This document shows, piece after piece, positions 1 to 49,515 of a DNA stretch of 64,000 nt; positions within the stretch are counted from its first letter, which is position 1, and the number at the start of each line of letters is the position of its first letter. Under the pieces are notes generated by a model, which was not told the DNA's origin, searched no databases, and saw only the letters and a program-made list of their open reading frames with translations. Origin of the DNA: Sycon ciliatum (Eukaryota; Porifera; Calcarea; Leucosolenida; Sycettidae); contig NC_088647.1 in NCBI RefSeq assembly GCF_964019385.1, forward strand, positions 18,469,533 through 18,533,532, written 5' to 3'. Both the position numbers and the translations under genes were made by a program.

Positions 1-45
1 TACGTTTTTTTTTAATCAGTTTCGACGCATCTTTTGTTCTTTATG

Positions 46-342
46 GCACAGTGGGTTGGTCAAGGACCATGATTGAGATACGAGAGGTACCTGGTTCAAG
101 TCCTGCCTGGGAGCGGTTTTTCCAGCCGTGCTGCTACCCACAGTCAACTGGGAACTTGTGGCCTGGCACAAGGGGTACATGGATGCGGCTAATGGGGTCT
201 TTCTCGGCAATTGTGCCAGTGGTTGTGAGACTTATCCACTCACCCCCACCGTTAGGCGCTGCATCTGCCGCTAGGGTTTACCGGGTGTTAGCGGCCATCG
301 TGAGTTCCCTTCGGGAACGGACACGATAATTTACTTCTTCTT
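46..342 (+). mobile_element. SINE with tRNA-like head, nearly full copy
   Basis: The 5' part carries a good pol III B-box (GGTTCAAGTCC at about 92-102), and a region resembling a tRNA D-arm (AGTGGGTTGGTCAAGGACC) lies about 40 bp before it. The 3' half ends in a hairpin-prone stretch (TTCCCTTCGGGAACGG) followed by a pyrimidine-rich tail. The same sequence recurs at 4107-4175 (3' end only) and, reversed and split, at 38049-38080 plus 47513-47780. Shared structure across three loci supports a dispersed SINE. The tRNA origin is inferred from the boxes. A piggyBac-like MITE has inserted in its tail at TTAA. Confidence 0.7.
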
Positions 343-3443: not shown

Positions 3444-4106
3444 AGGATGGAACCATGGCTCCATCGTCTCCGATGACTCGATGACAGATGACGGTCTTGA
3501 TGGAACCAGCTTATCACGACGTGTTTGCCATGCGTGGAGCACACTAAACCACCACTTGACACGTACACTGTACGTGCACACAACTACAGGAGGCAAGAGG
3601 CTGGTTTGCTGTAACTTGAATTTCACTTACTGGGTGATAATCAGAAGACAGTACTAATTGAACACTGTATTGGTCCTGATTAGGACACACATACATATAC
3701 TACATATACTCTGATTTTCTGCAGAGCTCACTGACTTGTCAGTTTGAGCACTCTGGCAAGGTACGTTCGGGCCTGATTGGAAATTTTTATTTCCATTGCT
3801 ATCAGGTTCGGCCTAATTTCCTCTGTGCTGCGCTGACGAGTCCACAAAGGACGGAACAATTCTGTCCGCAGACTGAGTATACTCTGATTTACTAATTTAG
3901 CGATGAATAATATCAAATGCACAATCCTAACACAAACATTTCAACCAAAGTAGTTATGCGTCTAGAGCATTTTCTTGTCACAAACATTAGTGGCATATCG
4001 TTTCATTAATTGCCTGCAAATTTGCTGGTCATAGCACAAGAAAATGTCACTTGAGGAACATGACTCCAACATGAACAACTCCAATAAATAATAAATATTG
4101 AAAGAA

Positions 4107-27583: not shown

Positions 27584-28219
27584 CAGTCAACTTCGCTAAT
27601 AACGACTGCGGACAATTCGCGAATAACGACAGAATTTCCATGCCCAGAGCAAAGTCCCATCCAACTGGAATACAATAATAATGGGCGCTTTCGATTACAC
27701 GCATTTCGGTCAATTCTAGAATTAGTTATTGTTGATGCACAGTTCGATTACACAAAAAGTGACAAAATCCGTCGTTAGAATTGATTTTATCCAATTCCGT
27801 CGAATCCATCAATTCTGAAGAGAAGGCGGAATTTCTCTAATTCTGGCGCCAGAATTCCACTGTCGGTGTGTTACCGGTTTGGTTATGATCTGCGCGAAGA
27901 GCCTCCCTGGCCGGCGTGTGCGCGATGCTAGGTCCACGTGCGCGCGATTGATCGCGAGGGTGTACGTGATCTCTTTTTGCGATTCATCAATTTCATTTGT
28001 GACATGACATGAATAAAATGCGTTGTGAATTCAAGTCGTTCGTTTACAAGGCCGGAATACGTTCATTCTGGCCATTCCAGAATTTTAAAAAAAACAGTTC
28101 CAGAATTGTGTAAACGTGTAATCGAAAGCGCCCACTGAGACTTCGGGTATAACGACACTTCGCGAATAAGGACACTTTTCTGATTCCCCGCCGAGTGTCG
28201 TTATAAGCGAAGTTGACTG
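27584..28219. mobile_element. pogo/Tigger-like TIR element (unit 1) with a nested TIR element
   Basis: TA-flanked; inverted ends CAGTCAACTTCGCTAATAAC and CAGTCAACTTCGCTTATAAC. The corresponding element in unit 2 (37852-48257) is enormously expanded by nested insertions. It hosts the GGGCGC-TIR element at 27683-28133. Confidence 0.7.
27683..28133. mobile_element. GGGCGCTTTCGATTACAC-TIR element, uninterrupted copy
   Basis: 451 bp with exact inverted ends GGGCGCTTTCGATTACAC. It contains many internal GAATT words and a CG-rich centre (GTGCGCGCGATTGATCGCG). No ORF. Its counterpart at 37954-48171 is split by a SINE carrying the 9.4-kb element. Class unknown. Confidence 0.7.
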
Positions 28220-37791: not shown

Positions 37792-38167
37792 TAGCGTAGT
37801 GTAGTCCGTAGAGCTAGTTGGAGTTCATCAAGTACATTGTACAGTCAACTTCGCTAATAACGACTGCGGATATAACGACAATTCGCGAATAACGACAGAA
37901 TTTCCATGCCCAGAGCAAAGTCCCATCCAACTGGAATACAATACAATGCCAATGGGCGCTTTCGATTACACGCATTTCGGTCAATTCTAGAATTAGTTAT
38001 TGTTGATGCACAGTTCGATTACACAAAAAGTGACAAAATCCGTCGTTAAAAAAAGTAAAAGTAAATTATCGTATCCGTTCTAGTCCGTGAGCCAAATCTC
38101 AGAATCGGCTGTTTTAGCATCGACCGTTGCACCCAGAGAGGGACAAATCGTCCTTCAGCACACCGAT

Positions 38168-38688
38168 TCAGGATGGTATCCTGAAGCGATTTCCACTTGT
38201 TGGACAATTCGAAACTGATCCAGGGAGGTCACAGAAGACGCCAAACATCCAACTTTGCTCTCTGACAGCAGCGGCCATTTTCGCCTTCTTCACTTGATTT
38301 TTTTGCGCTTGTTCACGGATTCTCATTTTTTGAAGCCATGAGCAGATTCCACGAGTGCACATAACGCGGAAACCAGTGCACAAAACTAGATTTGAATTTT
38401 TTTTACCGCTGAGAATTATCAATCCGGATCATGCATGCAAACTGCAGCAAAGTTACAATGCATTCGTTCAGAACTAAACTGACTTCAAAGAATGTCCTAA
38501 ATACCTCTCGAGATATTTGTTCACCACTTCCTAGGCGTAGAAGACTGTAGTGAGTAACCTTCTGGAGCGAATGGCGGACTCTGCCCCGAGCATGAACTTC
38601 TTTTCATCCTGTTCAAGGTCAAATATTACTCAGTTTGCGTTGAAGAATAACAATTACATGAAAAGGCGACGAGGAGACAATAACTTTA
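38168..38688. other. Left inner part of the 9.4-kb element, no gene recognised
   Basis: AT-rich, short frames only; subterminal region of the TIR element up to the fold-back arm at 38689. Confidence 0.4.
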
Positions 38689-39548
38689 TTAATGCGATTA
38701 ATAGTATAAGTGAAGCGGACATTACAAAAATGATGAATGAGAATACATGTATCTAAAATGGTTGTTCCTAATCGATTTTCTTGAGACTATCATCAGGGAA
38801 AATCGTCTCACAATAGAGGCTATACGGAGAAACAAACTACTTATAGGTTAATGGATTGTGGGAAGTATACAAGGTGAGGTGTGAAAAAAAACTAAAGTGG
38901 GAGAGAAGACGAAAGAAATTAGAAGAAAAGATGTGAGAGTGTTCTGACGGTGTGAGCTACTACAAAAGGTGAGTGAAATGAAGGCGTGGAAGCAGGTGAA
39001 TGTGATAGAGTGAGGAACTGTGAGGTGTAGGTGTATGCAAATGAATACGTGTGTGAATGCTAGGTGAAGAGTCTCAGTTTTGTGACATTTTCTTTTTGAA
39101 TGCATAGGTTAGGATTGTGTTTACGGATGAAAACAGCTTCTAATACCTTAACCCTTTGTGGGTCTTACTCAATGTATGTGAGGGGTGGTCACGCAAACAC
39201 GCGCACAAACAACCAGCCATAACTCAAGTTCTGTGGGTTGTAGGTATGGGTAAACTATATATATTCAAAATCTGTATGCCTGGACGAGTCCAGAAAACAC
39301 AAATATGACTATGTCCAGGCAAGGGTATGACCCGTGGTAGCCCTTCAAGTTGAGAGAAAATACAATTGCGAACAAAAAACACAAAAATCACAGCACGAAG
39401 TGCATACCAAGTTCGTGATGGAGCTGAAGTCCTATGATAAACAATCAGGTAAGCGCTACATCTTGGTGAAGAATATATGCTCCTAATTCCGTCCTGGAAC
39501 TCCAACACGTCGCCATCGGCGAGGCACCAGCAGCAACAGTTCCATCAC

Positions 39549-42494
39549 AATAGACCGATCCCCTTATTATTGTCTGGGTTCGAGCAAGGGGGCAACTCCG
39601 CAGTCGCGTGGGATCCTGCTGCACACACGCGACCAACCTCACCTCGCGCCGAGCTCGGCTTTGCGTGACTTCTCGCATGCGAAGTGCAGAGCACGCGAAA
39701 TCTACACGCAGTGCAAGCCTGTCTACAAAAAATGCCACAAGGACTTTTGATTTGAGCTGTTTTGTTTTTGTTTAGACGTCTTCCTTTTTACGACTTCAGG
39801 ATGCCTTCTCAGGATCATTGCTGCGTTCCTCACTGTCAGAACAGGAGGACGAAGCAAGCAAGTCATTTCACTCCTTTCGTCGTGTGGAGCCACAGCGGCC
39901 TGGAGCAAGCGGATCCAGGCTATTCCCCGTGAGGAAGGACGTAGTTTTAGGGTCACTCTGAATATTTGAGATGCAGCGATCATTTCGATCCCGAAGTCGA
40001 AATCGTTTTGCCCAGCTCTACAAGGGCAGGATGCGTCCAGGAAACCAAACAGCTGTCCTACGGTACCAGGTTTGCTTTTCGCAAGAGAGTGGAGTCTGGA
40101 CGCTCTGCTCCCTATGCTCGCAAAACAGTATTTGCTGAGCCTAGTGCAGTTTGGTCATGGAAGTGCAGCGTCTGCATCACGAGCTCCCCATGCTCGCAAA
40201 CCAGTATTTTGCTGAGAGGCAACGGCATTTTGAGTTGGAAAGGAACCTGGCTTAGTGCAGTTTGGTCCTGTAATGGAAGTGCAGCATCTGCATCAGGAGT
40301 TGGCAGCAAGTAGAGCTCGTGTACAGAGTCTCGTGGAGCAGTTGGACGATGGGGTGAAGAAAGCCGAAAAACAGCTTACGTACAATAACATAAAGAAAGA
40401 CTCTGAGCCGCGCCAGTTTCAGACTGGTTTGCCTTCAGGTGTTTGGACCGCTCTGTGGGACTTCTTTGAGCCTAGCCGAGAAAATGTACTGCGCCGAGCC
40501 AGATCTGTGAAGACGGAAGCTGAGGGACGGCGGATACAGTTGGAGGTGGCCGTAAATCGCCAATGAGCATGTAATGGAGGATCAGCTGCTATTGGCATTG
40601 ATGTGTCTAAGCCTGGGCCGAATGGGACAGAAGCTGTCATGCGTGGCACAAGTTAATCATCCGTTTCACGGTATATACTATATAGCTAGCTGAGCTGGAA
40701 AGACGTCTTGTTCCTCCGTTTGGGCATGATCCCCATTTGGGCGAGCTGGCGAGATGTTCAGTCATCAATGCCATGTACCGCAAGACATTCTGCATTGTGG
40801 ATGAAACAGTTCTATTTTGCCATGCACTTAGGGTTCTCGCACCGGCACAAAAAGACCCAACAGATCCTTGCGCTCTTATTTTCTCCCATGGTAACATTGC
40901 TGATCACAACACCCGGTAGCCAGTCGCAGATGCAACCAAATCAACCAGGTTCTCTTACTCTTTTTTTCCAATACTGAAACCAAAGGTATACCAATATTTG
41001 CATCGAATGCAGTGATGATTTCAATACTGTCCACTAGTACAACGCATTACCAGACTGGCATATAATCATGATAATATTATCCATTTCGCAATCACTGTCA
41101 TTGCTTTCTTAGATCTTCAATCATCAATATCGGACCATAAACCGTCTATCATCTTCTATTATATCATCATTAGTATCCTGCTACTATCCTCCTCTAACGA
41201 TGAGCTCGAAGAAAAGAAACAGCGGTCTAGAGGCGTAAACACTATCTGTCAACGGAAGTGTCCTTGCTGTGCTGGTGTGTTTATGCTTCGTGCATTAGTT
41301 CGGCCAAGAGCGCATGGTGGTGGCGGGTTGAGGATGTTAAATATACTAGAAAATAGTTCACTCTGAACGTGCAGGCGGTATATTCATAGGTTCGAAAGAA
41401 CCGCACACACACTTTGCTGCAGACAGCGGCAAGCTTTGGCCCTCGTGCTTCGAAGGGGGAGCAATCCACTGTGCTACGCTTGCGATTAACAGCAAGCTTC
41501 GACTTTTCAAAGGTACGACTCATCATTGGCTCTGGGGTAATGTTCCTGGAACAAATGCCCCATAGCCAACTGAGGGCCAGGGAGCACGCAATCTGCCTTC
41601 CTGGGCGAGAAGTGTTCCAGCACAAGAAGCAGCACGAATACATGCTGACAAAGACCACCATCACCACCAGCCGGCACACAGCACACTGTTCTTCAAACAC
41701 CATCCACCCCGTCCATGTGTTTGCACTGTCCTTCTCTAGCTCTTCACGCTCAACAAATAACACGCACTGCTCATCGTTTTTTTTATGCTTCCTCTGGGTT
41801 GGCTAGCCCTTCGACTTGACAAAACAGCGATCACCACTGCACTGCTATCGTCAGCTCATAGCAGTCGCTTCCACCAGTGGCTTTTCCTGTCTTTGCAAGG
41901 TGTCCAAGGATGGCTGCTGTTGTCACTACAGGCAAATCAGAAGTACTTTAGTGGCTGATGTCCAACCAGATCGTTGGAAAATCGATTTTTCCACTTCAGG
42001 GCTGCTGATCGCGACTTGGTGACTTGGCAGCACCACGGTTACCTTCATAGAAGATGGCTCTGGAGAGGAAAAGACAGACCAGAAAAAGGTTACTATTATC
42101 TTCAGCACCGATCGCAAGGAGAAAGAAATATGGTCTGCTGTAGCCTAGGCACAAAATAAATCTCACAACACGATTCGCGATTCGAATATTTCAACAACAA
42201 AAAAACTCACCTCTGGAGTAACTCCTGTTTGTGGCCCGAGATCGTTCCCTCCCGCGCCTTGAAAAAATCCTGCAGCGGCATCACAGTCCATGTCTCTCTC
42301 GGAGACTCTGCTCCTACCAGCAGGAGGTTTAGCACCGCTCGAAGCCATCGCAAACTACTTGAACTAAGCAGAAGACATTCCAAAACAAACCTGAAACACA
42401 CTGTCAAAGATGCTGTCACGTTCAAAAACTAGCTCGATCGCGAGTGAGGTTGCCCCCGTGCTCGAACCCAGTATAATAAGGGGATCGGTCTATT
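39549..42494. mobile_element. TIR element carrying a THAP-type transposase relic, nest level 7
   Basis: Inverted ends of about 45 bp: AATAGACCGATCCCCTTATT, then CTGGGTTCGAGCANGGGGGCAAC, on both sides. The relic at 39801-40566 suggests a PIF/Harbinger-like (for example ISL2EU-type) transposon. Target duplication not resolved (flanks CAC and TTG). Confidence 0.65.
39801..40566 (+). pseudogene. THAP-domain transposase relic (Harbinger-like)
   Basis: The frame from ATG 39801 reads MPSQDHCCVPHCQNRRTKQ ... W then hits a stop at 39932. The remaining THAP pieces (RIQAIPREEGRSFRV, then RCSDHFDPEVE) follow in shifted frames, giving the C2CH pattern C-x3-C ... C-x2-H. After a gap, 40270-40566 encodes a coiled coil (LHQELAASRARVQSLVEQLD) followed by FQTGLPSGVWTALWDFFEPS, the helix-turn-helix entry segment typical of THAP plus DDE_4 transposases. 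The DDE catalytic core itself is not recognisable. Multiple frameshifts make it non-functional. Confidence 0.6.
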
Positions 42495-42929
42495 TTGGTT
42501 CGTTCAGCTCAGCGCCGCTCGCGTCAGATTCGCTCGCTCAGATGAGTACGAGACTCGTACTCAGGCGCGATGTCACGCATGCCGTGATTCTCACGGCCAG
42601 GCGAATCAGCTGATCGCACCTGACAAGTCCTTGTAAGAGTTGCTGTTGCTGTGCTTCCTCGCTGGTTGGTAAATTTGATTTCTTCATTCGGGGACGATTT
42701 ATTTGAGCTTGGAGGACTCAACGGAGCTCTCTTTCTCACCACATTACACTGGAAATCCTCCAGGGACATCCAGCCTAGACTGGTGCCGTCAGTGTCCTCA
42801 GAAAGCTTTTCTGACACTGCCTCAAGAGATGCACTCCCATTCTCGAAATGCGCGCATGGCGGATGTTCGTCTTTTCCAATTTCACCAGACTTCAGTGGAT
42901 CAATACTGCAAAAATTTGTATGGTAAGTA
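42495..42929. other. Interior of the piggyBac-type element, no gene recognised
   Basis: Short frames only; leads into a retrotransposon fragment. Confidence 0.4.
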
Positions 42930-43576
42930 TGGTTGAAGATAACCTAATGTTAAATATTCAGAAAACACAATATATTACAGTAACTAAAGCCGACTCCTCT
43001 TGGCGATCTGTCAAGCTGCTTGGCTCTTTGTTGGGGTCCGCAGAGGATATTCAGGCAAGAATAGGTGCTGCGAATAGAGCGTTCGGCTCCATTTCGTGGA
43101 AGCGTCATAAACTGAGCTCCAGACTTTGTATGTTCTCTGCCCTCATTTTGCCTATCCTGTTGTATAACTGCGGACTGTGGGCCCTGACACAGCAACTCAG
43201 TAATCGGCTGGACGCATGGCACCGCAGAAAATTGCGGTACCTGCTTGGTGTGGTGTACCCTCACCACATGTCGAATGCCAAGGTGTACGCCTCAACGCGA
43301 CAAGGCCCAGTCAGCACTACCTGTCGCAGACGTCGGCTGCTCTGGCTGGGCCATGTTGTTCGCGAAGGACGTAACTCAGCGTCCTACCAAGCACTGGAGA
43401 TGGCAATTAATACCCGGGACATCAAGCGCCCACGTGGCCGACCCCATCTCAGATGGATTGACAATATTAAAAGTGATCTAAAGCACGCCAATATTGATAT
43501 TTCTGACTGTTTTGAACTGGCTCTAGACAAGAAAGAATGGCTGATGCTTATGGAAAAATGTGCTGCGCTTGCGTAG
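42930..43576 (+). mobile_element. Non-LTR retrotransposon fragment, RT C-terminal region
   Basis: The frame shows NIQKTQYITVTKADSSW, VKLLGSLLGSAEDIQARIGA, LCMFSALILPILLYNCGLWA, RRRRLLWLGHVVREG and RPRGRPHLRWIDNIKSDLKH. This is the thumb/C-terminal segment of LINE-type endonuclease-reverse transcriptases. Only the last about 210 residues are present; no RT catalytic motif. Upstream Met at 42848 is coincidental. Confidence 0.75.
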
Positions 43577-43868
43577 TTGTTCTTACTGCGATACGTTCTA
43601 ACAATAATGAGATGCCTTTTGTCGGCTCTTCTGCCTGGATTTCGTTGACAGATGCGTTAAGCCCATGGATCCTTCCATGAGTGACATGCGAACTGTAACT
43701 ATTATCATTATTATGGTTGTTTTTTACACCGTTGGAAAGCCTTGGACCTCAGCTACACGTAGAGCACCATTTTAGTTGTCTCCTAGCAACAAAACTCACC
43801 GAAAATACGATTTTGCTGTAAGGGTCACATACGACCCTTACGCTTATGTGAGACCCATAAAGGGTTAA
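43577..43868. other. Right end of the piggyBac-type element
   Basis: Non-coding; contains the inverted AAGGGTCACATACGACCCTT and the terminal inverted repeat. Confidence 0.5.
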
Positions 43869-44131
43869 GTTCACGAAACCTACGAGCACGACACAAAACA
43901 GTGAAGCATGAATCATCATACACTGAGCGGCATTGGCTACTAGACAAGAGGTGTTTCTTAATGGCTGACCCTTTCGTTGTGGTCTCACCTTCAGTCCGGT
44001 CATCGTCATCTTGGTTGTCCAACTCACTCTCTTCATCACTGCTCTCACCTTCCTCATCCTCCTCCGCTTCCATCCCGTCCTCTGCACCCAACGACAATCC
44101 CACGCTACTGCTCGCTGCTAGTCCATGTCCG

Positions 44132-44463
44132 GTAGCGTGGGATTGTCGTTGGGTGCAGAGGACGGGATGGAAGCGGAGGAGGATGAGGAAGGTGAGAGCA
44201 GTGATGAAGAGAGTGAGTTGGACAACCAAGATGACGATGACCGGACTGAAGGTGAGACCACAACGAAAGGGTCAGCCATTAAGAAACACCTCTTGTCTAG
44301 TAGCCAATGCCGCTCAGTGTATGATGATTCATGCTTCACTGTTTTGTGTCGTGCTCGTAGGTTTCGTGAACTTAAGGTATTAGAAGCTGTTTTCATCCGT
44401 AAACACAATCCTAACCTATGCATTCAGAAAGAAAATGTCACAAAACTGAGACTCTTCACCTAG
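44132..44463 (+). pseudogene. Acidic ORF with GIY-YIG-like C-terminus (Penelope-like relic)
   Basis: An open frame inside the palindrome arm, running from its spacer: an acidic stretch (EAEEDEEGESSDEESELDNQ) then HLLSSSQCRSVYDDSCFTVL and VLEAVFIRKHNPNLCIQKEN, ending TKLRLFT and stop. The last about 45 residues look like the conserved end of Penelope-like GIY-YIG endonucleases (LEA..I....P.L..Q). Neither the reverse transcriptase nor the GIY-YIG catalytic start is present. The mirror copy on the other arm is broken by the piggyBac-type element. Confidence 0.45.
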
Positions 44464-45427
44464 CATTCACACACGTATTCATTTGCATACACCTACACCT
44501 CACAGTTCCTCACTCTATCACATTCACCTGCTTCCACGCCTTCATTTCACTCACCTTTTGTAGTAGCTCACACCGTCAGAACACTCTCACATCTTTTCTT
44601 CTAATTTCTTTCGTCTTCTCTCCCACTTTAGTTTTTTTTCACACCTCACCTTGTATACTTCCCACTATCCATTAACCTATAAGTAGTTTGTTTCTCCGTA
44701 TAGCCTCTATTGTGAGACGATTTTCCCTGATGATAGTCTCAAGAAAATCGATTAGGAACAACCATTTTAGATACATGTATTCTCATTCATCATTTTTGTA
44801 ATGTCCGCTTCACTTATACTATTAATCGCATTAATAACAATTACATTCGTGAATGGCTGAACTGAGAATACCCTAATGATTTCTCTTGGATTTCGTATCC
44901 CAAGTTCCTCTACTTGGCTGGATAAATCGCCTCTTGACTTCATCATACTGGAATTGGACTTGTAGATAATAGCGAGCAATGAATTGGTGAGTGAAGTATA
45001 TTTATAATAACCACTCCATTACTGAATACATGTACGTAGAATACTCCAGTATAGAATGATATGAACACTGAAGCTAATGTGACATTACGGTAGTACCGTT
45101 GAATAGGAAGTACGTCACCACTGTTGTAAATGCACGCGCTGATCCTATCCAACCTGAATTGGCTATTGATTGCCTAACACACTCATACAGTACCAAAAAC
45201 TATCTGTCATTGCTCATTTTCCACTCAACATAACACAGTTGGAAATCGCCAGCTAGGTGCACATCTTGGCACATAATGTGTGCTATCGCAGTCCACCGCA
45301 GTACACAGTAATACACAGATAACTACCGATATAAGATGATGCCACATACATACATACACGCATACGCGCGCACCCACACCCACACGCGTGCGCATGCGCG
45401 CGCGCGCACACACACACACACACACAC

Positions 45428-45680
45428 ATGAAGCAGCTGCCGAATCCGACTATGCAGTCTCCCAGACACGCGTGCACGGGCACACACACAAACCAGCAGC
45501 CGAATCCAACTATACATTCTCTCAGGCATGCGTGCACATCCACACACGCGCGCGTGCGCACATACACATGAACCAGCTGCCGAATCCGTTTATGCAGTCT
45601 CCCAGGCACGCGCACACACACACACACACACATGGACCAGCTGCCGAATCCGACTATGCAGTCTCCCAGGCACGCAACCC
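45428..45680. repeat. CA-linked minisatellite, 4 diverged units of about 60-80 bp
   Basis: Each unit has CAGCTGCCGAATCCGACTAT or a variant, then CAGTCTCCCAGGCACGCG, and then a (CA)n/(CG)n spacer of variable length. Unit starts at about 45430, 45491, 45570 and 45636. Confidence 0.75.
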
Positions 45681-46324
45681 CAATGGCAATGGGAGAAGAA
45701 CAGACTCCAGGAGGACGCCGGATCAGGAGGAGGACCCACCTCAGTGAGTGCAAAATGACCGATGCCCGTTGTCTGTTGTGGTCCTGCTGCCGTCAGTTAT
45801 AAATTGATCTCTCTTCACAAGACGGACAGCGACCGAACGAAGGAAAAGCAGATGTCCCTGGTGCCTGCCTGATCACCGAGGCAGAGTCCAGTAGCGGATG
45901 GGAGTGAAGGCAATCTAGGGATGCACGTGTGGTCGGCCAAAGCTCCTCTGCTGCGAAACCAGCAACAGCATGTCCCGCGGCCGGAACACACTTCCTGTCT
46001 TGTCCTGAACATTGCCGTTTCCGGTTACATGTCCCCTCGTGTGAGGGGCCGACAGACATGGAGAGTTTGGCTGAGGCGCTGCTCGCATCAACGTCCTAGC
46101 GAGATCTAGACTTTCTTGAATCCATTTGTTGCAGTTGTGCAGCTGGAACCCTCGGGTTGACTTGCAACATGATCGCTTTGGCTGCAGTGAGCTAAAACCC
46201 ACCACTGACCTGAAACACGGATCACACTGACCACAGTGATTGTGGCAACACCGTGCCCCGACACCCACCATCCGGCCCGCAGTTGTAGCCTGGGGTGGTG
46301 TCACCAACAAAGGAAAGCGCCTAG

Positions 46325-46490
46325 CACGCACACACATGCACCAGCGCGCGCACACACAAACATGCACGCGCGCGCGCACACACACACATGTACGCTCGAG
46401 CACACACACATGCACGCGCGCGCGCACACGCACACGCACACACAGAAACGTGCACGCACACACGCATGCACACACTGGCACACATACACA
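46325..46490. repeat. Alternating CA/CG tract
   Basis: Runs of (CA)n with embedded (GCGCGC), strictly alternating purine-pyrimidine over many stretches; Z-DNA-prone composition. Cys/Val-rich and Thr/His-rich ORFs here are artefacts. Confidence 0.85.
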
Positions 46491-48257
46491 GACAATGGTA
46501 TAGTATGTTCCTCGTCAAGCAGCCAGGTGCTCTGGCTTGGACCTCCAGCAGCGCTGGTTTCGCCCTCGCTACTTGTCGTCTTGCCCTCGCCAGTGCTGCC
46601 TGCAACAAAACATTCCCTTCCGTAAACTCTGGGTGGACCAGTTCTCGGTGTTGTGTTGACACCGTGCTCTGCTTTCATGGCATTCGTTGTTCGTATCAGC
46701 CACTAAGCTCCTGGTAGGTAGCCCCTTGTTGGCCTTAGGATGTGGCTCTGGGTTCACTACTACATGCACATCACTGTCAGTAAGTATAGATAAAGCAAAA
46801 TCAGAGGCACTGGTCTTCTCCAGTGTTGCAAATGCTCAGGATCACATGCGTGCAATTGGTGTAGCACTTTCCATGATACCAGCCACACCATTTGCTCTTC
46901 CCTGAGCCCTTGTGCTGGCAAAGAAAATCCCAGACATGGTCGTCCTTCTCTCGAACAGCGCTGACGATGCGACGCCAACTTGTAGTCTCGATATTACTCG
47001 CTGCAGGCTTCTCGTTTCTACTAAATTGGGTGCTGTCACACAGACATAAATTCCAGCAATATTACTCCGCTGGGCTGTCGTTTGCCACTTCGTTGCCGTC
47101 AGCTGCCCCATCTGGCACCTCGCTGCCACTAGAAACGTCTTCCTCCTCTTCCATTGTTGTCAAACAACATCAATGTACACGAAAGGAATAAACTTCAATA
47201 AAGTGATCTCAAAACCCCAAATCCATATTGTCGTCAACGTCGTTATCTTCTAAAAAATAAATTATTTTTCCTCATTCCACCCGAAATCGTACTTTTGTGC
47301 TTACTCGTCCGATGCACACCTCACCACTCGCGTAAAAATATTTGTTCTCACGGTGGAATTTGGTCGAGAAAAGAAGCCCTCCCGAAGGTCTCTGGATCAG
47401 TTCTGGAACGTCCAACAAGCGAAAACGTATCCTTGACCAACACTGTAAGCGGTGACTTGTCCCTCCGAGAGTGCAACGGCACTTGTGATTTTGAGTTTTG
47501 GCTCACGGACTATTCCCGAAGGGAACTCACGACGGCCGCTAACACCCGATAAACCCTAGCGGCAGATGCAGCGCCTAACGGTGGGGGTGAGTGGGTAAGT
47601 CTCACAACCACTGGCACAAGTGCCGAAAGCGACCCCATTAGCTGCATCCATGTACCCCTTGTGCCTGGCCACAAGTGGGTAGCAGCACGGCTGGAAAAAC
47701 CGCTCCCAGGCAGGACTTGAACCAGGTACCTCTCGTATCTCAATCATGGTCTTTGACCAACCCACTGTGCCTGCCTGGTGAATCCGTCGTTAGAATTGAT
47801 TTTATCCAATTCCGTCGAATCCATCAATTCTGAAGAGAAGGCGGAATTTCTCTAATTCTGGCGCCAGAATTGCACTGTCGGTGCGTTACCGGTTTGCTCA
47901 TGTCTCAAGCGCGCGAAGAGCTAGAGCCTCCCTGGCGGCGTGTGCGCGATGCTACATGTAGGTCCACGTGCGCGCGATTGATCGCGAGGGTGTACATGGT
48001 GTACGTGATCTCTTTTTGCGATTCATCAATTTCGTTTGTGACATGACATGAATAAAATGCGTTGTGAATTCCAGTCGTTCGTTTACAAGGCCGGACTACG
48101 TTCATTCTGGCCATTCCAGAATTTAAAAAAAACAGTTCCAGAATTGTGTAAACGTGTAATCGAAAGCGCCCACTGAGACTTCGGGTATAACGACACTTCG
48201 CGAATAAGGACACTTTTCTGATTCCCCGCCGAGTGTCGTTATAAGCGAAGTTGACTG

Positions 48258-49515
48258 TAACAGTTTTGTCAACTAATACTTCGCGTACAACGACACTCGG
48301 CCCGGCGGGGCATCAGAAAGGTGTAGCGAAGTGTCCTTATAATTATACCCGAAGTCTCAATAATATTATGTACATGTACATGGCTTACAGTTACTAGTAC
48401 TCAATCTGCGGACAGAACTGTTTCGTCCTTTGTGGACTCATTAGCGCAGCATAGAGATTCGAGAAACGTACCTTGCGGCAAGTATTATTAGTTGCCAGAG
48501 TGCTCAAACTGACAAGTCAGTGATTGTGTTCGATTATGCACGCGAATCGATTCGCGCTATTCACATTGTAATAGGTAGCCGAGTGGTATCAGGAGGCACA
48601 CACAAGAAGACTGACTAATATTATGTTATTCGGCTCAATCTGCCTGAAGTTATGTATACAACTTCTCCGGCTCAATCTGCCTGGAGGGACTCTGAAAGGA
48701 ATACAACTGCTCCGGCTCAATCTGTCTGTTCTGTTCTGAAGAAATGAGTAAAGCATGGCAGCTTTTATAGGGCGAAAAGGAAGGAGATCATCATAGAGTC
48801 TGCATGAGCCAGGAGTCATGAAAAAGGGCAAAAGTCTGTTGTGTCAGTCCAAACAGAACTTGGGAAGGCATAGCAACAGTATCTAAATGTATAAGGATGA
48901 AAGAAGCAAACGGAACTTTGGAGGAGAACAGAGGCCAGGGAGGGCATTGGCAAATGGATGCAAACAGGATCTAGAAAGGGTCGTGACTGTCCGCATGACC
49001 TCAGTCAGGGTCAGGGAGGTACGATATGTAGTATGCAATCCAGCAAGCGCAAGAGAAACAAGTGGTGAGAGGTGATATAATTAGCTTTGCAGGCTTGTCA
49101 GCAAAGGAGTGACAAGAGTCATGCCGTGCGTGTACGTGTACATGTACATGTGACATGATTAGAGGTCAGTAGATGTACATAGATGTATGATGTAGTACTA
49201 GTAGTCAGCTACAGTTCAGTACTAGGGAGGCAGGAATACTACAAGACTTACAACATCACCCCGTCCGGCCCATGGGTGAATCGAATCGTGGATCATCATG
49301 ACATGAAAATCGAACGACTTGAAATGCATGCGAATGGATTCATGAATCGATTCAAGTGCACAATCGAACGCAGCCAGTGAGCTCTGCATACGGTTAGATG
49401 GGACTTTGCTCTGGGCATGGAAATAATTCTGTCGTTATATCCGCAGTTGTTATTTAGCGAAGTAAAGTAATAGTTTAGTTGACTGTAGAGAGTGTAGTCT
49501 GTACTCCTACCGGTA
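48258..49515. other. Spacer shared with unit 1, no gene recognised
   Basis: Matches 28220-30402 minus the Penelope-like and LINE insertions of unit 1. It has a short duplication of CAACTNCTCCGGCTCAATCT near 48660-48720 that unit 1 lacks. Confidence 0.5.

Follow-up and report, generated by a model that had tools for sequence, protein, structure and literature searches.

The window analysed here, a stretch of 64,000 nucleotides (G000:C5:18469533-18533532), contains a 10.4-kb nest of eight mobile elements stacked seven levels deep, with the innermost elements sitting inside six others. From the outside in, the nest comprises a pogo-like MITE, a GGGCGC-TIR MITE, a SINE, a TIR element, a Penelope-like inverted pair of 3′ ends, a piggyBac-type MITE and, side by side within the latter, a THAP-remnant TIR element and a 5′-truncated LINE, with own lengths of 195, 474, 297, 3,245, 1,456, about 987, 2,940 and 776 bp, respectively. 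Exact ends were located for all eight elements, and the flanking duplications are identical at seven of them, the eighth being AAT/ACT. The SINE and the LINE are given with a strand below, while the other six elements are listed without one. An earlier note, made from the letters of this region, had described a linear chain of seven nested elements. All seven are present with exact ends and duplications, and the seven levels stand, but the total is eight, the LINE having been overlooked; the LINE and the THAP element are siblings inside the piggyBac-type MITE.

We read the region, ran a self-comparison of the window and queried the genome it belongs to (an assembly of 538 Mb in 313 contigs) with each family and with three further junctions; out of 122 to 2,987 candidates per search, the best 40 were scored, and the copy numbers are lower bounds. 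Whether the elements occur as independent repeats elsewhere, on which the earlier note had staked the nest, was answered by these searches, in which 8/8 element families were found dispersed in the genome. In addition, uninterrupted sites are present in the same genome for 7/7 nested insertions (levels 2 to 7b).

The outermost element (level 1; 37842 to 48257, 195 bp of its own) has 23-bp TIRs and is flanked by TA at 37840-37841 and 48258-48259. A CAGT-type TIR is a criterion for pogo, and both this TIR and a TA duplication are found at level 1, which resembles pogo (Tc1/mariner) MITEs in its TA duplication and TIRs and is a short non-autonomous copy; from the TIR and TA we take it to be pogo-like (Tc1/mariner). 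Six of the seven fetched copies have TA at both recognisable ends, with the right end of L113 deviating, and the GGGCGC element is absent from all seven, which provides the empty site for level 2. Among the best 40 places scored with the left part, matches extend to query position 110 in the window and a single sister unit, and the remaining places end at position 101-108 of 110, where the GGGCGC element starts in the nest.

Level 2, the GGGCGC-TIR MITE (37954 to 48171, 474 bp of its own), is flanked by AAT at 37951-37953 and ACT at 48172-48174, with one mismatch, and belongs to a family dispersed in the genome. Identical 3-nt ANT flanks were found at 25 of 26 other GGGCGC loci (the window's own locus excluded), and the remaining one reads ATT/AAT; shared flanks reduce these 26 loci to 16 keys, two of which are one base apart, leaving about 15 independent sites. 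The available text of PMC4482050 gives an ANT target duplication for the Pangu group of PHIS transposons. This duplication is present in the GGGCGC family, here called Pangu-like, which is represented here by a short MITE.

The same MITE pair occurs without the SINE in unit 1 (27584 to 28219, plus strand), which serves as a control. Among the 40 places scored with unit 1, full-length matches numbered three, all on C5 at 18.497-18.634 Mb, and the nest-bearing unit 2 appeared through its right part. At least four duplicated units (L039, L040, L041 and the window's unit 2) lie inside about 137 kb of C5:18497115-18633945. Their similarity extends past the MITE pair on both flanks, in pieces, indicating that the units are duplicated segments. 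In the MITE pair, unit 2 differs from the others by 7/633, 7/638 and 4/655 substitutions (0.6-1.1%), and the bases immediately left of the level 2 duplication vary between units. Across the four units as a set, substitutions in the pair range from 0.3 to 1.4%. To the right of the nest, positions 48394-48462 match Hammerhead_HH9 weakly (21.2 bits; gathering score, 52); this sequence is common to unit 1 and resembles 3821-3879.

Level 3 is a SINE on the minus strand (38049 to 47780, 297 bp of its own) with a 12-bp duplication, AATCCGTCGTTA, at 38037-38048 and 47781-47792. Unit 1, L040 and L041 each carry a single AATCCGTCGTTA and no SINE, so that the SINE-free site previously pointed out in unit 1 holds in 3/3 other units found. 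Given that these three are SINE-free, the six inner insertions reached the locus after its unit split off, which agrees with the earlier proposal that most insertions are later than the segmental duplication, six of them lying at the SINE site that is unoccupied in the other units found. The SINE search returned 39 other copies among the best 40 scored of 2,987 candidates. A second copy in the window (45 to 317, minus strand) has CCGTTCCCG uninterrupted, and CCGTTCCCG is likewise intact in 10/10 copies fetched from the 39 others listed, bearing out the claim that other SINE copies keep this site; the SINE in the nest reads CCGTTC, the TIR element and TTCCCG where other copies keep it. A tRNA-derived SINE would have a tRNA-like head with a Pol III promoter; ARAGORN found no tRNA anywhere in the window, and a B-box-like stretch, GGTTCAAGTCC, was spotted by eye.

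The TIR element that interrupts the SINE (level 4; 38081 to 47512, opening with TAGTCCGTGAGCC) is flanked by TTC at 38078-38080 and 47513-47515. It had been taken for a 9.4-kb element, but its own sequence amounts to only 3,245 bp, the remainder being inserts. Six copies were fetched at both ends: four have both ends with matching 3-bp duplications (TAC, ATA, CTA and CTA), and in the other two the right end is absent from the examined stretch. L069 is alignable to the element up to 47406 and divergent beyond, with the expected right end likewise absent from the stretch examined. A Pfam scan of one short ORF recognised no transposase in this element. CA-rich simple repeats and a minisatellite-like repeat lie within it at 45360-45680 and 46320-46490 and are partly common to L069.

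Inside the TIR element lies a Penelope-like inverted pair of 3′ ends (level 5; 38660 to 44832, 1,456 bp of its own), with a 14-bp duplication, AATAACAATTACAT, at 38646-38659 and 44833-44846. The Penelope-like fold-back of the earlier note is present; its extent is refined to 38660-44832, and it has a tail, about 25 nt long, on its left side alone. The outer part of the left palindrome arm (38686 to 39151, plus strand) is identical to its partner at 44372-44837 at 464/466 positions. The right arm (44132 to 44837, minus strand) is uninterrupted at TTAA, and its inner part pairs with 43865-44108 at 244/244 positions. The two arms differ at 2/710 positions around a 23-nt spacer, and one of them is split by 4.7 kb. 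One difference is confined to the left arm, as the right-arm base is found in 30/30 other occurrences, and the second has no flank match and hence no polarity. The insert may have stabilised the palindrome, and the split arm is a natural setting in which to study whether an insertion can preserve an inverted repeat that otherwise disappears.

The site without the fold-back is preserved in other copies of the TIR element. In 39/39 other places scored, the match to the left part of the TIR element stops at or before query position 579 (window 38659), the point at which the fold-back follows in the nest. With two short second pieces set aside, 39 places were available for the left half and 39 for the right, and in 25 copies the halves abut, overlapping by 9 nt in 23 and by 1 nt in two; abutting halves represent the uninterrupted site, the sequence of which was read directly in L069.

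The fold-back family has 755 candidates in the genome. Arms in both orientations were found in 24 of 30 fetched loci and a tail on the examined arm in 17 of 30, the window's own two counted in both cases, and the break points between arms vary among copies. Inverted or tandem pLTR-like repeats, a one-sided tail and a short target duplication mark Penelope-like elements, and the family shows inverted repeats, the tail and, in the window, a 14-bp duplication. An ORF in a relative (L021) matches RVT_1 (E 0.001) and GIY-YIG (E 0.0031), both below the Pfam curated cut-offs, and the window copy retains the C-terminal end only, without the RT region. Rfam gave no hammerhead match in the palindrome arms up to E 1; a CTGATGA...GAAA stretch seen by eye near 44730 may correspond to the hammerhead motif. 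Among the 24 Rfam matches up to E 1, none was at the gathering score, and the strongest, microRNA models on the palindrome and CA repeats, were taken as spurious; a LigXa_C Pfam match at E 0.041, among nine proteins scanned, was disregarded. According to the available text, Penelope-like elements of Adineta vaga have inverted pLTRs, an optional tail and short duplications (PMC3846280), and the tail in Anolis is ascribed to internal initiation of reverse transcription (PMC11167929). As far as these accounts go, the family in the sponge resembles both in its inverted 3′-end repeats, one-sided optional tail and short target duplication, as well as in the AT-rich targets and in the ORF of longer copies, with its putative RT and GIY-YIG domains. 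By contrast, the window copy is a 5′-truncated inverted pair without the RT region, and its 14-bp duplication exceeds the 8-10 bp described in the portions available (PMC3846280, PMC11167929).

The split arm is interrupted by a piggyBac-type MITE (level 6; 39152 to 43864, about 987 bp of its own), with TTAA at 39148-39151 and 43865-43868. TTAA flanks this MITE in the window, L070 and L071, which is the duplication expected of piggyBac, and level 6 shares the TTAA duplication and TIRs of piggyBac MITEs as a short non-autonomous copy. The earlier observation that the right palindrome arm keeps the uninterrupted TTAA was confirmed and extended, as ATACCTTAAGTTC is uninterrupted in 28/28 other fetched Penelope-like loci, several of these loci being the paired arms of a single element. 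The window alone, among the best 40 places scored, gave a full-length match to the MITE/Penelope junction query; MITE matches stop at query positions 69-71 and Penelope matches start at 66, an overlap corresponding to TTAA.

Two elements occupy the piggyBac-type MITE separately. Level 7a is a TIR element with a THAP remnant (39552 to 42491, 2,940 bp), flanked by AT at 39550-39551 and 42492-42493; level 7b is a 5′-truncated LINE on the plus strand (42936 to 43711, 776 bp) with an ATT-type tail and an 8-bp duplication, TATGGTTG, at 42928-42935 and 43712-43719. The MITE copies L070, L071 and C8:28612442 are without both inserts. The last of these has a 5-bp deletion in common with the window copy, not seen in L070 and L071, and reads TTCCATCACAATTTTGG, the empty site of the THAP element. 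P elements make an 8-bp target duplication, and a P-element reading of level 7a was ruled out, given that the empty site shows AT alone to be duplicated. With the empty site CACAATTTTGG in the C8 copy, the duplication follows the ISL2EU rule of AT within A|AT|T. The available text of PMC4482050 states this rule for ISL2EU, another group of PHIS transposons, and a TIR that usually begins GG; the AT duplication and THAP remnant of level 7a agree with ISL2EU, and its TIR opens AGACC instead of GG, a difference that the word "usually" in that source makes non-decisive. The THAP remnant is weak (13.6 bits, E 0.12, below cut-off), and the three plus-strand frames of 39760-41000 gave no match to DDE or YqaJ, where an ISL2EU element would encode a DDE plus THAP transposase and a YqaJ ORF. 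Of the THAP-transposase TIR element proposed earlier, the TIR element with exact ends thus stands, with THAP as a weak remnant only and an ISL2EU-type target duplication. The places listed for this element among the best 40 scored are 99-100% identical over 301 bases.

Apart from the window, 39 of the best 40 places scored match the LINE with 98-100% identity over 769-779 bases, and this scarce divergence between copies suggests a recently active family. In six copies examined, the flanks differ, the tails are of the ATT type and the sequence extends further 5′. Reverse transcriptase is encoded by a longer copy (RVT_1, 71.7 bits), so that reverse transcriptase, 5′ truncation and target duplication are all found in this family; the window fragment itself gave no Pfam and no PDB match. 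For the THAP-element and LINE junction queries too, the window is the sole full-length match within the best 40 places scored. Seam overlaps are ATT for the THAP element, TTAA for the piggyBac-type MITE and one base for the LINE.

These observations confirm that the nest is real and consists of mobile-element insertions, as exact duplications combined with single-copy empty sites are not expected from chance or misassembly. We consider it very likely that a chain of separate transposition events built it. In the proposed history, a pogo-like MITE would have taken in the Pangu-like MITE, and the pair with its surroundings would then have undergone duplication, giving at least four units along about 137 kb of a single chromosome. 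The SINE would have entered one unit next, followed by the 3.2-kb TIR element into the SINE, and the Penelope-like element would have retrotransposed into the TIR element as an inverted pair of 3′ ends. A piggyBac-type MITE would have inserted into one Penelope arm at TTAA, and the ISL2EU-like element and the 5′-truncated LINE would each have entered that MITE, in a mutual order that the nest does not fix. The enzymes involved would be transposases for the TIR elements and target-primed reverse transcription for the SINE, LINE and Penelope. Ends, duplications, uninterrupted sites, dispersed families and SINE-free units were observed directly, and we infer that every step took place at this locus.

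The explicit insertion order of the earlier note is confirmed by the uninterrupted sites as far as layers and their order are concerned, but not as a strict order of arrival at the locus, since nesting gives the order of host and guest and a cut-and-paste host can carry inserts with it. Some inner elements could accordingly have entered their host elsewhere and travelled inside it to this locus: the piggyBac-type MITE might have brought both of its inserts, or the TIR element the Penelope-like element. The anatomy is compatible with such carriage, and cut-and-paste excision need leave no second copy. PiggyBac cargo over 9 kb is described and cut-and-paste elements carry kilobases, according to the available text of PMC2874221. 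Against such carriage, none of the four inner junctions recurred elsewhere among the best 40 places scored in each search, which would favour insertion in place, and the C8:28612442 MITE has the window copy's 5-bp deletion yet lacks both inserts. Moreover, a SINE is incapable of cut and paste, and the TIR element must therefore have entered the SINE at this locus. Taking these observations together, we regard joint arrival of host and guest as unlikely.

The Penelope arms (2/710) are less diverged than the units (4/655 to 7/633), matching the required order, with too few changes to separate the two values and with gene conversion possible in both, which could lower them. If the low divergence does not stem from gene conversion, six insertions are dated after a very recent duplication. 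Six families (SINE, TIR element, Penelope-like, piggyBac-type, ISL2EU-like and LINE) using at least four mechanisms reached one 10-kb spot after a duplication diverged by only 0.6-1.1%, and we tentatively raise the possibility of a very recent cross-superfamily burst or an attracting locus. Seven levels packed into 10.4 kb could mean that elements did not land at random but were drawn to the spot by open chromatin, by AT-rich targets or by the palindrome, or because transposons are safe places to land, and palindromes are reportedly preferred targets of plant LTR elements (PMC6911290). However, a random-insertion model without deletion, in which the nesting depth of a base drawn at random follows a Poisson distribution of mean -ln(1 - transposon fraction), already expects depth 7 or more at a transposon fraction of 0.5 upward, giving 0.6, 4.5, 26 and 138 kb at this depth in 538 Mb at assumed fractions of 0.4, 0.5, 0.6 and 0.7, and the nest contributes 3.7 kb. 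Under this model, a 538-Mb genome should contain some sequence at such depth if transposons make up half or more of it, and we consider attraction rather improbable. That unrelated repeat copies were misjoined in assembly is very improbable, for although the region is repeat-rich and palindromic, it contains no N, lies inside a 39-Mb contig, and misjoins would not yield family-specific target duplications at eight elements together with single-copy sites elsewhere.

The nest is a well-documented example of an ordinary process, of a kind already known; its merit lies in the completeness of its internal controls, and this single locus establishes in which order seven kinds of element were active relative to one another. 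The available literature text states no record depth, and deeper nests may well be published; a plant example with three layers is given in the accessible part of PMC1560396. In the maize adh1 and wheat 5Am clusters, as described in the available text of PMC2672092, elements lie in at most three others, mostly LTR elements, over 160-215 kb. The present nest resembles them in that nesting reveals the order of insertion and sequence divergence serves to check it; unlike in those clusters as described there, no LTR element was recognised and the innermost elements lie in six others within 10.4 kb (PMC2672092).
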